Assembly: GCF_016461955.1 (NCBI RefSeq)
Contig: NZ_JADMNM010000002.1
Coordinates: 310,001 to 374,000, forward strand
Source: Qipengyuania sp. YIM B01966
GTDB taxonomy: Bacteria; Pseudomonadota; Alphaproteobacteria; Sphingomonadales; Sphingomonadaceae
Length of the DNA stretch: 64,000 bases
Reading direction: 5' to 3'
Made by a program: the position numbers and the translations under genes. The notes under the pieces are model-generated. The model did no database searches and had not been told where the DNA came from. It saw nothing but the letters and a program-made list of their open reading frames with translations. Below, piece after piece: positions 14,776 to 30,817 of the stretch (positions are counted from its first letter, which is position 1; the number at the start of each line of letters is the position of its first letter).

Positions 14776-15984
14776 ATGCGCCCTGCGCGTCCCACGGCGC
14801 ATTGTCGTTTCGCAAGGACCATTGCCCTGACACCGATCGCGCCATTCCTGCCAACCGCCGAGGCCGAGCTGCACGCGCGGCTGGTCCGCCGTGTGCGGCC
14901 ACTGGCGGCGCGGATCGCCGCGCGCCATCGCGGGCGGCGGCTGGCGCTGGCGGCAGCGGCACTTGCCGTTCCGGCCATGGCGGCGCCGGGCGGGTGGGAT
15001 ATGCTCACTACATGGCGCGATGGGGGCGGTGCCCCGCGAACAATGCCGTTCGAGACCGCCGGGCAGAGCTTTCCCGGCTCTGCGCTCTACTACCTCGAAG
15101 ACCCGGCCCCGCAGCCCGGCCTTGCCGGGGAATTGATGCCCTTTGTCCGGCCGGCCGGGGCGGAGGAAGCGCCGCAACTGGCCGCGATCGTCGATGCCGG
15201 CCCCGCCGCCCGTGCCTTCTCGCAGGCAGGGACAGGGATCGACAAGGCGCGCGCGCTGCAATGCCTGTCGATGGCGGTCTATTACGAGGCCGCCAGCGAG
15301 AGCGAGGAGGGGCAAAAGGCGGTCGCGCAGGTGGTGCTGAACCGCGTTGCGCACCCGGCGTGGCCCAATAGCGTATGCGGCGTCGTGTTCCAGGGTTCGG
15401 AGCGGCAGACCGGGTGCCAATTCACCTTCACCTGCGACGGATCGCTGCTGCGTCGCCCGTCGGTCGCCGGCATGGCCCGCGCCCGGCGGATCGCGGCGCG
15501 CGCGCTGGCGGGCGATGTCTATGCGCCGATCGGCCTTGCCACGCATTACCACACGGTCTGGATCAATCCCTATTGGGCCGGAACGCTCGATACGGTCGGT
15601 CGCATCGGCGCGCACGTGTTTTATCGCTGGCGCGGCGGGGCCGGCACGCGGAGCGCGTTCACCGTTGCCTATCGCGGCGGCGAGCCGGTTGCCGCGCCGC
15701 ATCCGCGAGCAGCCTTGCCGGCCGCGGGCGATCCGCTGGCGGGCGACCCGGCCGCGCTCGCCCGCGCACTTGAAGAGCAATACCAGACGGCCCGCGCCGC
15801 CGCCGAGCAGCAGGCACAGGCTGCCTCCGCCGCGCCGGTAACCGCGCAACCGGTGCCGACCTATAACGCGGCCGTGCAGGCGCGGGGCGGCGATGCCCAG
15901 TTCGTTGGGGAGAACCTGCCATCGGGCGGCACGGTCAAGCCTGAATACGCCAATTCGGGCCGGTGGATCGCCCAGCCACGCTGA
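14776..15984 (+). CDS. SleB-like cell wall hydrolase
   Basis: A protein of about 402 aa with one N-terminal membrane or signal segment (LALAAAALAVPAMAAP) and a Hydrolase_2 (SleB-type lytic transglycosylase or amidase) domain at about residues 157-260. The domain shows the conserved MAVYYEAASESEEGQKAVAQ helix with its catalytic Glu (about 171), LNRVAHPAWP, and the Cys-containing CGVVFQGSERQTGCQFTF. The C-terminal 100 residues are Ala/Gln-rich and low in complexity. An in-frame ATG at 14719 exists but would add an atypical 19-residue segment; the start is uncertain. It is divergent from btuB. Likely acts on peptidoglycan in the periplasm. Confidence 0.82.
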   Translation: MRPARPTAHCRFARTIALTPIAPFLPTAEAELHARLVRRVRPLAARIAARHRGRRLALAAAALAVPAMAAPGGWDMLTTWRDGGGAPRTMPFETAGQSFPGSALYYLEDPAPQPGLAGELMPFVRPAGAEEAPQLAAIVDAGPAARAFSQAGTGIDKARALQCLSMAVYYEAASESEEGQKAVAQVVLNRVAHPAWPNSVCGVVFQGSERQTGCQFTFTCDGSLLRRPSVAGMARARRIAARALAGDVYAPIGLATHYHTVWINPYWAGTLDTVGRIGAHVFYRWRGGAGTRSAFTVAYRGGEPVAAPHPRAALPAAGDPLAGDPAALARALEEQYQTARAAAEQQAQAASAAPVTAQPVPTYNAAVQARGGDAQFVGENLPSGGTVKPEYANSGRWIAQPR

Positions 15985-26599: not shown

Positions 26600-27346
26600 T
26601 CAGCTTTCGCCGGGGAGCGGACCACCGGGATAGGCCGGCTGCGGCCCGTCGGTCACCGGCGCACTACTGCCACCCAGCGCAGCATCGTCCGCCTGCCGCC
26701 GCGCAGTGGCATAGCGCGCATCGTCCCACTGATTATCGACTGCGCTGCCCTGCCAGCCTAGCTGCACCGCGCCGTAATCGACGTCCTCAATGCGCCCGTC
26801 ATTGCCGATCCGGCAGGTGAAGCCGCGTCCGTCGAAAATGGTGCCGTCGATCCGCCAACCTTGGGCGGTGCGCTGAGCGCCGGTCACCTCGGCAACGCGA
26901 ACATTGCGCTGGATTGCATCGACACACATATCGGCCGCCCGGTCCATTCCGCGGCTTTCGCCCAACCGGCTGTCAGGCCGCGCATCGCGATAGCGATAGA
27001 CCGGCTCCTGATAGCGCCGGTCGTGGTAGCGATAATCGCGCTCGCGGTAGCTTTCATCATGGCGGGCATTGCGCGTCGCGGCATTGGCGATCGCGGCAAT
27101 TCCGCCGATGATGAGGACGCCGGCCAGTACGTCGCCGGCATTGACGCGGTTGCGCCGGTAGCCACCCCAATAGCCGCCGCCCCAGCCCCAACCGCCCCAC
27201 TGGTTCACAGCGACTGCATCATCACTCCACGCCGCCTGGGCCGGGGCTTGCGGCGCATCGCTCAGCGGTGAGGCGGCAACCGGCGTCGCAACCAGTGACG
27301 CGGCAACGGCAAAGGCGGTCGAGCCAGCAAAATATACGCGGCGCAT
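26600..27346 (-). CDS. Exported Tyr/Arg-rich protein, paralogue A
   Basis: 248 aa. Signal peptide ending PVAAS, then a Gly/Trp-rich stretch (GGWGWGGGYWGGY), a hydrophobic segment with NAGDVLAGVLIIGGIAAIANA, a Tyr/Arg/Asp-rich linker, and a C-terminal domain with two Cys (ADMCVDAIQ and RGFTCRIGNDGRI). The same layout occurs in the neighbouring gene at 27438, so the two are paralogues. ATG at 27346 follows GAGGAGCC. Family function is unknown to me; similar proteins are common in sphingomonads. Confidence 0.7.
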   Translation of the reverse strand: MRRVYFAGSTAFAVAASLVATPVAASPLSDAPQAPAQAAWSDDAVAVNQWGGWGWGGGYWGGYRRNRVNAGDVLAGVLIIGGIAAIANAATRNARHDESYRERDYRYHDRRYQEPVYRYRDARPDSRLGESRGMDRAADMCVDAIQRNVRVAEVTGAQRTAQGWRIDGTIFDGRGFTCRIGNDGRIEDVDYGAVQLGWQGSAVDNQWDDARYATARRQADDAALGGSSAPVTDGPQPAYPGGPLPGES

Positions 27347-27437: not shown

Positions 27438-28010
27438 TCAGCGGAGCCCGCGCAGCCCGCTATAGTCGAGATTGACGATCCGGCCGTAGCGCACGTCGCA
27501 GGTGAAGCGCCCGGAATCGCCGCGACTGCGATAGGAATCGCGATCGCGCCAATCACCACCCCAACCGTTGTATCGCCCATCGCGGCCGACCGCGATTTCG
27601 CCGCGCACGCGGTAGCCATCGCGCCGCTGATCGACATCGGTGATACCAGTCACATCCGCGCGGCCATAGGTGTAGCGCGCCGCATCCTGTTCGGCTGCCA
27701 GCACGCACCGTTCGACGGCCTGGCGCGAACTGCCGCGCTGATAGCCATCGCGCCAGTTATACCGGTCTGTATAGCGATCATTATACCGATCGTCATAGCG
27801 GTAGTCGTAGCCGCGATTGCCGCGCAGCGCGCCGGTCGCTGCAGCAATACCGCCGAGGATTACGGCACCGGCGATAATCTCGCCCGCATTGATCCGATTG
27901 TCATCCCGGTAATCGCGGTACCGGTCCTGCGCCATAGCCGGCGCCGCAGAGGCCAGCGCCATCGCGCCGACGGCTGCGGAACCGATGATCGATTTGCCAA
28001 AGGTCTTCAT
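27438..28010 (-). CDS. Exported Tyr/Arg-rich protein, paralogue B
   Basis: 190 aa. Signal peptide ending PAMAQ, the hydrophobic segment NAGEIIAGAVILGGIAAATGA, a linker of repeated DDRY/NDRY/TDRY units, and a C-terminal domain with two Cys (VERCVLAAE and GRFTCDVRYGRI). Cys spacing and the VTG/FTC landmarks match paralogue A. The tyrosine-rich linker is low-complexity and probably disordered. Role unknown; probably envelope-associated. Confidence 0.72.
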   Translation of the reverse strand: MKTFGKSIIGSAAVGAMALASAAPAMAQDRYRDYRDDNRINAGEIIAGAVILGGIAAATGALRGNRGYDYRYDDRYNDRYTDRYNWRDGYQRGSSRQAVERCVLAAEQDAARYTYGRADVTGITDVDQRRDGYRVRGEIAVGRDGRYNGWGGDWRDRDSYRSRGDSGRFTCDVRYGRIVNLDYSGLRGLR

Positions 28011-28191: not shown

Positions 28192-28617
28192 TCAGGCGTC
28201 TGCGTATTCCTCTTCGTCGGCGGTCGTCACCGGGCCGCTATCTTGGCCCTTGGCGGCCAGATCGCGGTCAACGAATTCGATCACCGCAAGCGGAGCGGCG
28301 TCGGATTCGCGGATGCCCGCCTTGATGATGCGGACATAACCGCCTTCGCGATCAGCGTAGCGCTCAGCGAGGACATCAAACAGCTTCTTGAGCTGGGTGT
28401 CGTCCATCAATCGGCTGGCAGCCAGGCGGCGGTTCGAAAGGCCGCCACGCTTCGCCAGCGTGACGAGCTTCTCAACGTAGGGCCGCAGCTCCTTTGCCTT
28501 AGGGGCGGTGGTGATAATCTGTTCGTGCTTGATGAGCGCAGCCGCCATATTACGGAACATCGCGTTCCGATGGCCGGTCTTCCGGCCGAGCTTGCGCTGC
28601 TTCATTCCATGACGCAT
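28192..28617 (-). CDS. rplQ: 50S ribosomal protein L17
   Basis: 141 aa. Begins with the invariant [20 protein letters not shown] and contains [20 protein letters not shown]17 lines the exit-tunnel side of the large subunit. In most bacteria it directly follows rpoA. Here an unrelated exported-protein gene and a terminator lie between them, so it probably has its own promoter. The C-terminal 20 residues are acidic and extend beyond the E. coli length of 127. Confidence 0.98.
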
Positions 28618-28688
28618 GGGTATCTCCGTTCGTTGAGGGCCCGTGCCAGGTAGCCCAAACCACGCGGGGCCCTTCCCCGCGAAGCGCC

Positions 28689-28745: not shown

Positions 28746-29633
28746 TCAGCGGCGCACGCGCGCCCGGTTTTCGAGATCGGAGATCCGGCTTTCGAGATAA
28801 GCGCGCTCCTCCGCTGTGGGGGTCAGCCGCGCGTAGGCTGCTTCCAGCCGCACGATGTCGCCATGTTCGACGAGCAATTGCTGACGCGCGGCGAGGCTCA
28901 GCCCGCTGCTCGGCAGCGCCTGCGCTATTGCGTCGAGGCGGGCGCGGTTGGTCATCACGGGCGTCGTATAGGCGATATCTCCCACCCGCTGGTCCAGCGC
29001 GTCGAGACGGGTATCGAGATCGTCACGCTCGCGATCAGTCAACGTGCCATCGCGCATATAATCCGCTTCGAGCGTGATCAGGCGGGCATAATCAGACTTA
29101 AGCCGGGTGCCGACGGTGCGGGTCAAGCGCCGCGCCGCGACCTGCGCATCAACGCGCCGATTAAACTCGGCCTGTCCGTCACGCACGTCCCAGCGGCTGA
29201 AAAGGTCGGTATTTCCATACTGGCTGTCACCATACCGGCCATCGGCGAGAACCTGCAGCAGTTCGTTATATCGCGCGGTCAGTTCGCTGCGCTCGGCGGA
29301 CGAATATGACCGATCAGCCCCGTAGCGTGCTTCGAGCTCGACAAGCTGGTAATAGTCGCTCTTTAACCGTGCACCCGTCGCCTGCGCCATCCGCCCGTTC
29401 CGCACATCCGCATCAACGCGGCTTTCGAATTCGGCCCGCTGGTTAGCGAGCGGGGTCCGACCGGCCCGCCATTGGCCCTCGAGCGAGGAATCTGCGCTGT
29501 TCCCGACACCGAGCAGATTGCCGAGGATCTGCGTAATCCGGTCACGCGTAGATGGCTGTGTGGTCGTCTGAGCCTGGGCGGGAACCGCAATGGCCGCCAT
29601 CGACACGGCGGCGAGAAGGGTTTTGAGACGCAT
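28746..29633 (-). CDS. Exported protein with three internal helical repeats
   Basis: 295 aa. Signal peptide ending VPAQAQ. The mature part contains two clear copies and one degenerate copy of a helical unit of about 70-80 residues. Copies 1 and 2 share the pattern EF..RVDA.V...R.T...G.RLKSDY..L..LE..Y, followed by an acidic stretch and L..R...L. Copy 3 starts about residue 227 (RARLDAIAQALPSSGLSLAA) and retains VRLEAAYARL ... YLESRI. A coiled-coil or helical-bundle fold is likely, located in the periplasm. I know no family for it. It lies between rpoA and rplQ, preceded by AGGTGATCT before the ATG. Confidence 0.78.
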   Translation of the reverse strand: MRLKTLLAAVSMAAIAVPAQAQTTTQPSTRDRITQILGNLLGVGNSADSSLEGQWRAGRTPLANQRAEFESRVDADVRNGRMAQATGARLKSDYYQLVELEARYGADRSYSSAERSELTARYNELLQVLADGRYGDSQYGNTDLFSRWDVRDGQAEFNRRVDAQVAARRLTRTVGTRLKSDYARLITLEADYMRDGTLTDRERDDLDTRLDALDQRVGDIAYTTPVMTNRARLDAIAQALPSSGLSLAARQQLLVEHGDIVRLEAAYARLTPTAEERAYLESRISDLENRARVRR

Positions 29634-29707: not shown

Positions 29708-29735
29708 AAAGGCCGCCCCTTGCGGAGCGGCCTTT
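29708..29735 (-). terminator. Strong terminator after rpoA
   Basis: AAAGGCCGC(T)CC pairs with GGGGCGGCCTTT around GCAA, a 12-bp stem, followed on the minus strand by CCTTTTGG. It is also T-flanked on the plus strand, so it may work both ways. It sits 26 nt after the rpoA stop. Confidence 0.85.
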
Positions 29736-29761: not shown

Positions 29762-30817
29762 TCAGCCGAGCAGTTCCTGCTCCAGCTTCTTGGCCATCTC
29801 CTCGATGTTTTCAGGCGGCCAGCCCGGAATATCCATACCGAGCCGTAGCCCCATCGACGACAGCACTTCCTTGATCTCGTTGAGCGACTTGCGGCCGAAA
29901 TTCGGCGTCCGCAGCATCTCGGCTTCGGTTTTCTGAACAAGGTCGCCGATATAGATGATGTTGTCGTTCTTGAGGCAGTTCGCCGAACGGACCGACAATT
30001 CCAGCTCGTCGACCTTTTTGAGGAGGTACCGGTTCAGCTGGTTGGCGTCCGATTCCTCGATCGGCGCGGCATGGCCGATCATCGGCGAGCCAGCCTGCGG
30101 CATACCATCGTCGAAATGGACGAACAGGCTGAGCTGGTCCTGCAGGATACGCGCGGCATAGGCCACAGCATCTTCAGGGGTCACGGTACCATCGGTTTCG
30201 ACCGTCAGGTTGAGCTTGTCGAAATCGAGTTCCTGCCCGACGCGGGCATTATCAACCTTGTAGCTCACCTGGCGAACAGGCGAATAGAGCGAGTCGACCG
30301 GGATCAGCCCGATCGGCGCATCGACCGGACGGTTGCCCGTCGCCGGCACATAGCCCTTCCCGGTGTCGGCGGTCAGCTCCATGTTGAGCGTCGCGCCTTC
30401 GTCGAGATGACAGATGACCAGGTCCTTGTTCATCACTTCGATGTCGCCGGTGACGGCAATATCGCCGGCCTTGACCTCGCCCGGCCCGGTGGCGGAAAGT
30501 TGCAGCCGCTTGGGGCCTTCACCTTCCATCTTGAGCGCGATCTGCTTCACGTTGAGCACGATGTCGGTCACGTCCTCGCGCACTCCGGCAAGCGAGGAGA
30601 ATTCGTGCAGCACGTTCTCGATCTTGATCGAGGTGATCGCCGCGCCCTGCAGGCTGGAAAGGAGCACGCGGCGCAGCGAGTTGCCGATGGTCAGGCCAAA
30701 GCCGCGTTCGAGCGGTTCAGCAACGAAGGTGGCCTTGCGGCCCTTGTCGCCGCCATCCTTGATTTCAAGGCTGTTGGGTTTCTTGAGTTCCTGCCAGTTC
30801 TTGGTGTTGACGGACAT
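29762..30817 (-). CDS. rpoA: RNA polymerase alpha subunit
   Basis: 351 aa. The N-terminal assembly domain ([20 protein letters not shown]) and the C-terminal DNA- and activator-binding domain ([18 protein letters not shown], then [16 protein letters not shown]) are intact, with the DNA-contacting Arg in RSANCL conserved. 102 nt after rpsK; followed by a strong terminator instead of rplQ. Confidence 0.99.

Follow-up and report, generated by a model that had tools for sequence, protein, structure and literature searches.

Proteins of the CpxP/Spy (LTXXQ, PF07813) and ZraP/Metal_resist (PF13801) families are exported, all-helical and charged, and cpxP and cpxRA are arranged divergently. We analysed a 64,000-nucleotide stretch of DNA from Qipengyuania sp. 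YIM B01966 (hereafter the window), which encodes a protein with these same general features, and some genes of its wider family adjoin two-component genes; nevertheless, the family has no profile match to either PF07813 or PF13801 and is built of tandem three-helix bundles. The only recurrent weak Pfam match was to the FIMAH domain (PF22888; 8 of 56 single units, best E 1.1e-4), the best whole-protein match seen reaching 14.1 bits against a cut-off of 24.8 bits, and kinship with this domain is putative. Exported proteins of approximately 105–125 aa with a single unit (for example L060, 5590..5919, and L176, 5740..6081) share with the window protein the signal peptide and the three-helix unit (hhalign 99.1% to units 1 and 2, 96.9% to unit 3), but have one unit instead of three, and their conserved SleB or two-component neighbours are absent at the three-unit gene. 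Our best explanation, offered tentatively, is that the three-unit protein is a soluble periplasmic multivalent binder that would support envelope upkeep, and that its gene was inserted at a tolerated site between rpoA and rplQ.

Protein architecture and predicted fold

The gene (28746..29633, ATG start) lies on the minus strand, the original prediction having given no strand, and encodes a product of 295 aa, on which a literature search returned no publication. The N-terminus, MRLKTLLAAVSMAAIAVPAQAQ, reads as a classical Sec signal peptide (approximately residues 1–20, MRLKTLLAAVSMAAIAVPAQA followed by Q; 29574..29633, minus strand), with a similar N-terminus in homologues, in agreement with the earlier claim that the protein is secreted. 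Counted from residue 21, the mature chain contains 39 Arg, 2 Lys, 25 Asp and 17 Glu; the protein has no Cys and no evident catalytic or ligand motif, and no usual sigma-70 type promoter was found on the minus strand of the gene.

We identified three consecutive units, all on the minus strand and all visible in AlphaFold2 models: unit 1 (29232..29456; helices at approximately residues 66–78, 84–104 and 112–131) and unit 2 (28968..29192; helices at approximately 150–166, 172–195 and 200–218), which are matched by the unit HMM, and the diverged unit 3 (28749..28964; helices at approximately 229–242, 247–269 and 274–291), which is matched to the other two by hhalign. Units 1 and 2 align with a BLOSUM62 local score of 132, compared with 28.6 +/- 5.7 in shuffled sequences (reached by 0/1000), while the scores of units 1 and 3 (55) and of units 2 and 3 (47) were reached by 2/1000 and 3/1000 shuffles, respectively. 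Profiles built from homologues gave hhalign values of 99.6% (units 1–2), 95.6% (1–3) and 96.9% (2–3). These scores indicate three genuine units. The repeated helical unit of the original prediction is thus upheld, as is the significance of the internal alignment by which it was to be judged; of the predicted two clear copies and one degenerate copy, the number stands and the degeneracy does not, unit 3 being homologous though diverged.

The three units adopt one common three-helix shape in the AlphaFold2 predictions. In the model of the whole protein (22 homologues; pLDDT 79.8, pTM 0.41), successive three-helix bundles, each well predicted, occupy residues 66–131, 150–218 and 229–291, and the low pTM makes their mutual placement uncertain. 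Modelling of one repeat, as had been suggested, gave for unit 2 alone (56 units aligned) a confident three-helix model (pLDDT 91.5, pTM 0.77). The unit comprises approximately 70–75 aa, is homologous across the family and contains the near-invariant residues E42, E55 and L59, as judged from the unit HMM, hhalign and the 56 units.

The protein had been described as belonging to no known family, and the searches for a Pfam family covering the repeat bear this out: Pfam and NCBIfam returned nothing above cut-off for the three-unit protein, and nothing credible for its homologues or for the 56 separate units. In Foldseek searches, neither the whole model nor the single unit had a significant PDB match, and the whole model had none among viral proteins either, so the fold provides no functional lead; by sequence or by fold, solved structures contain no significant relative beyond generic three-helix bundles. 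Matches from the PDB sequence search were designed coiled coils and chance matches and were set aside. A Homeodomain match (0.005) and a CCDC-167 match on L173 were discarded as composition or repeat artefacts, and the L067 match as a beta-barrel false positive.

Distribution and gene neighbours of the module

Homologues in named genomes were obtained with an alignment-based scan, a single-sequence scan of these genomes having found none; whole-protein carriers among them include Blastomonas, Sphingopyxis, Croceibacterium, Novosphingobium, Polymorphobacter, Sandarakinorhabdus and others, together with Brevundimonas and other Caulobacteraceae. A whole-protein match is present in 36 of the 362 good genomes of the window's family. 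No relatives were found in plasmid and phage collections. The unit itself occurs singly in the small exported proteins mentioned above or in tandems of two to four. Among the good genomes sampled, it is present in 54 of 72 of Sphingomonas type, all from one genus, and in 45 of 68 of Caulobacteraceae (genus names in the whole-genome sample were inferred from synteny with named loci), and is scattered in beta- and gammaproteobacteria, genomes outside Alphaproteobacteria including single-unit proteins. The module is widespread in Proteobacteria and missing from protein-family catalogues, and is not private to the window protein.

Judged by sequence reading, a signal peptide is found in the window protein and in most homologues; it is absent from two proteins of 650–700 aa with three weak units and a conserved neighbourhood (L185, 4371–6464; L186, 5089–7041). 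Two further unit proteins (L173, 4906–6330; L056, 5703–6641) have a Cys-containing N-terminal region whose best Pfam match, the lectin CVNH, lies below cut-off (E 0.08 and 0.16, respectively). In Blastomonas natatoria (L048, 5516–7940) an IS110-type transposase gene (PF02371, PF01548) interrupts the homologue, so that this strain can do without the gene, which is thus not universally essential.

Recurrent neighbours were observed for the single-unit genes. In Sphingomonas, a SleB-type hydrolase (PF07486; SleB/Hydrolase_2) adjoins them at 23 of the 29 loci. Two-component genes lie beside 17 of the 30 Caulobacteraceae loci that were retrieved; an OmpR-type response regulator is the neighbour in one genus of this family (8 of 9 loci), and hybrid histidine kinases adjoin single-unit genes at 9 further loci. 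All these counts are drawn from related genomes, whose loci are not independent events. Such neighbours, like the weak CVNH matches, speak for our preferred reading, but with less force because they belong to the single-unit cousins and not to the three-unit family, whose own neighbours are varied and show no SleB or two-component linkage. The window also encodes a SleB-type cell-wall hydrolase (15043–15984, plus strand; PF07486, 1.2e-27), unlinked to the three-unit gene. A broader proposal, which we regard as possible and somewhat doubtful, is that the unit, in one to four or more copies per protein, represents a major envelope module of Proteobacteria that has gone undescribed. Its function would be coupled in Sphingomonas to that of a SleB-type peptidoglycan hydrolase and in Caulobacteraceae to two-component systems that sense the envelope, and the window protein would be its three-unit version.

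The main rival to an envelope-binding role is that of a small helical periplasmic stress protein or chaperone resembling CpxP, Spy or ZraP, induced by a two-component system and possibly feeding back on it. Size class, export, all-helical structure and Arg/Asp/Glu-rich composition agree with such a role, as does the divergent orientation of the single-unit gene and the OmpR-type regulator in the inspected loci of one Caulobacteraceae genus. It nevertheless appears unlikely, since Pfam gave no LTXXQ or Metal_resist match even at relaxed E, the window gene has no two-component neighbour, and three-helix bundles differ from the hooked CpxP/Spy dimer (the fold comparison was not significant). We also considered that the exported gene might be dispensable and drifting, lack any consistent job and persist through neutral turnover, which would suit the patchy presence in the family, the variable genomic position and the interrupted Blastomonas copy; this is rather improbable, however, for a protein whose full-length homologues keep 50–61% identity, the unit architecture and the signal peptide across genera, and whose unit is very common in Sphingomonas and Caulobacteraceae.

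The locus between rpoA and rplQ

On the minus strand, the three-unit gene follows rpoA (29762..30817; NCBIfam NF003513, 9.8e-163) and precedes rplQ (28192..28617; TIGR00059, 8.6e-40), both above NCBIfam cut-offs, in a gap of 1144 nt. In all 28 relatives with both genes readable (L084 among them) the gap is 0 to 240 nt with no intervening gene, so the original prediction was correct in placing the gene between two genes that are elsewhere adjacent. Among the homologues seen, only that of L068, an Altererythrobacter-labelled MAG, shares this location, in a gap of 1762 nt that also holds an 89-aa ORF. The others lie beside rplU (Blastomonas), on the far side of rplQ (L084, one Sphingopyxis) or in unrelated places, and hence the position beside rpoA, whose conservation had been put forward as a check, is not kept. 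In the protein tree, the window protein pairs with that of L068 as its sister (98/77), and in the rpoA-rplQ tree the two genomes group with two others that have no gene there (four-genome group, 86/76), with which both a loss in the latter and two insertions are compatible.

Two single-unit exported genes were found in tandem beside rplT (L062, 5748–6382), which makes rplT the third ribosomal gene, after rplU and rplQ, to be seen next to a member of the module family, possibly by chance. In the window, two exported Gly/Arg/Tyr-rich proteins with no Pfam match are encoded on the minus strand (26600–27346 and 27438–28010), and L068 likewise has both downstream of its rplQ.

The gene is flanked by two RNA elements. 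After rpoA there is a 12-bp terminator-like hairpin with an imperfect U tract (29708..29735, minus strand; –31.4 kcal/mol for 76 nt, z –2.30), which the terminator scan did not list; hairpins occur at the same place in many relatives that have no three-unit gene. Before rplQ lies a conserved leader (28615..28676, minus strand; hairpin at approximately 28637–28656; covariance model match of 55.2 bits). In 32 Sphingomonadales, a 6-bp hairpin is formed by the 62 nt that precede rplQ: 99.5% of cells are paired, and 4 of the 6 pairs show a total of 24 double-sided changes. Its covariation score was reached by 0 of 500 shuffles and was far lower in slid versions. The layout is GGGC-UA-CC / GG-GCCC with the loop UNNNAC, followed by ACGAACG and the ribosome-binding site. 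Rfam gave no match for this hairpin, and a class-wide draw of 190 genomes under strict filters recovered it from just three genomes, all of the window's own family. The leader is a candidate ribosomal-protein leader and may serve as an operator for L17 or S4; a second S4 site ahead of rplQ had been suggested for E. coli in 1984, but firm proof never followed (PMC10931766). As the hairpin after rpoA and the rplQ leader are both kept, the insert plausibly spares the control elements of both neighbours.

A specific role in the alpha operon, for instance a supply co-regulated with RNA polymerase alpha and L17, could be read from the common strand, from the location shared by the window and L068, and from the other homologues near ribosomal genes (rplU in Blastomonas; rplQ in one Sphingopyxis). 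Such a role is very unlikely, as the product is exported, the gene is missing there in 28 of 28 readable relatives and sits elsewhere in most carriers and is set apart from rpoA by a hairpin, and rplQ has its own leader. The assignment of the gene to the alpha operon accordingly holds for its location and not for any demonstrated functional membership. The position is a local quirk and is uninformative on function, because relatives have rpoA and rplQ adjacent and most homologues are located elsewhere.

Proposed role of the three-unit protein

The units might also be taken for degenerate EF-hand-like or metal-binding modules with the DG.LT..E turn as ligand loop, unit 2 reading DYMRDGTLTDRE, formally near an EF-hand loop, but we rejected this as highly improbable, since the DxDxDG ligand loop is not conserved (positions 1, 3 and 5 vary across the 56 units), the near-invariant E42, E55 and L59 fit helix capping and core packing, and Pfam gives no EF-hand match.

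In the envelope-binding explanation that we prefer, the protein would be exported by the Sec route as a soluble periplasmic protein whose three three-helix bundles are carried on flexible linkers, representing one of the architectures of an exported module that is widespread and uncatalogued. It may bind multivalently in the cell envelope, to peptidoglycan, a surface polysaccharide or misfolded envelope protein, and would so support envelope upkeep with no enzymatic activity of its own. Its gene would have entered between the post-rpoA hairpin and the rplQ leader, a tolerated site, and this placement has probably been passed down within a single small lineage of Erythrobacteraceae. The analysis itself establishes the export signal, the three homologous units, the module family with its taxonomic spread and the variation in genomic position; periplasmic location, binding and a part in the envelope are what we propose on that basis.

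For the biology of these bacteria, the junction between rpoA and rplQ can accept an insertion provided that the leader of rplQ stays intact, and the analysis exposes in that leader a hairpin not represented by any Rfam family. Many exported proteins of Proteobacteria, probably annotated as hypothetical, are joined in one module family with recurrent gene partners, and their function thereby becomes testable.
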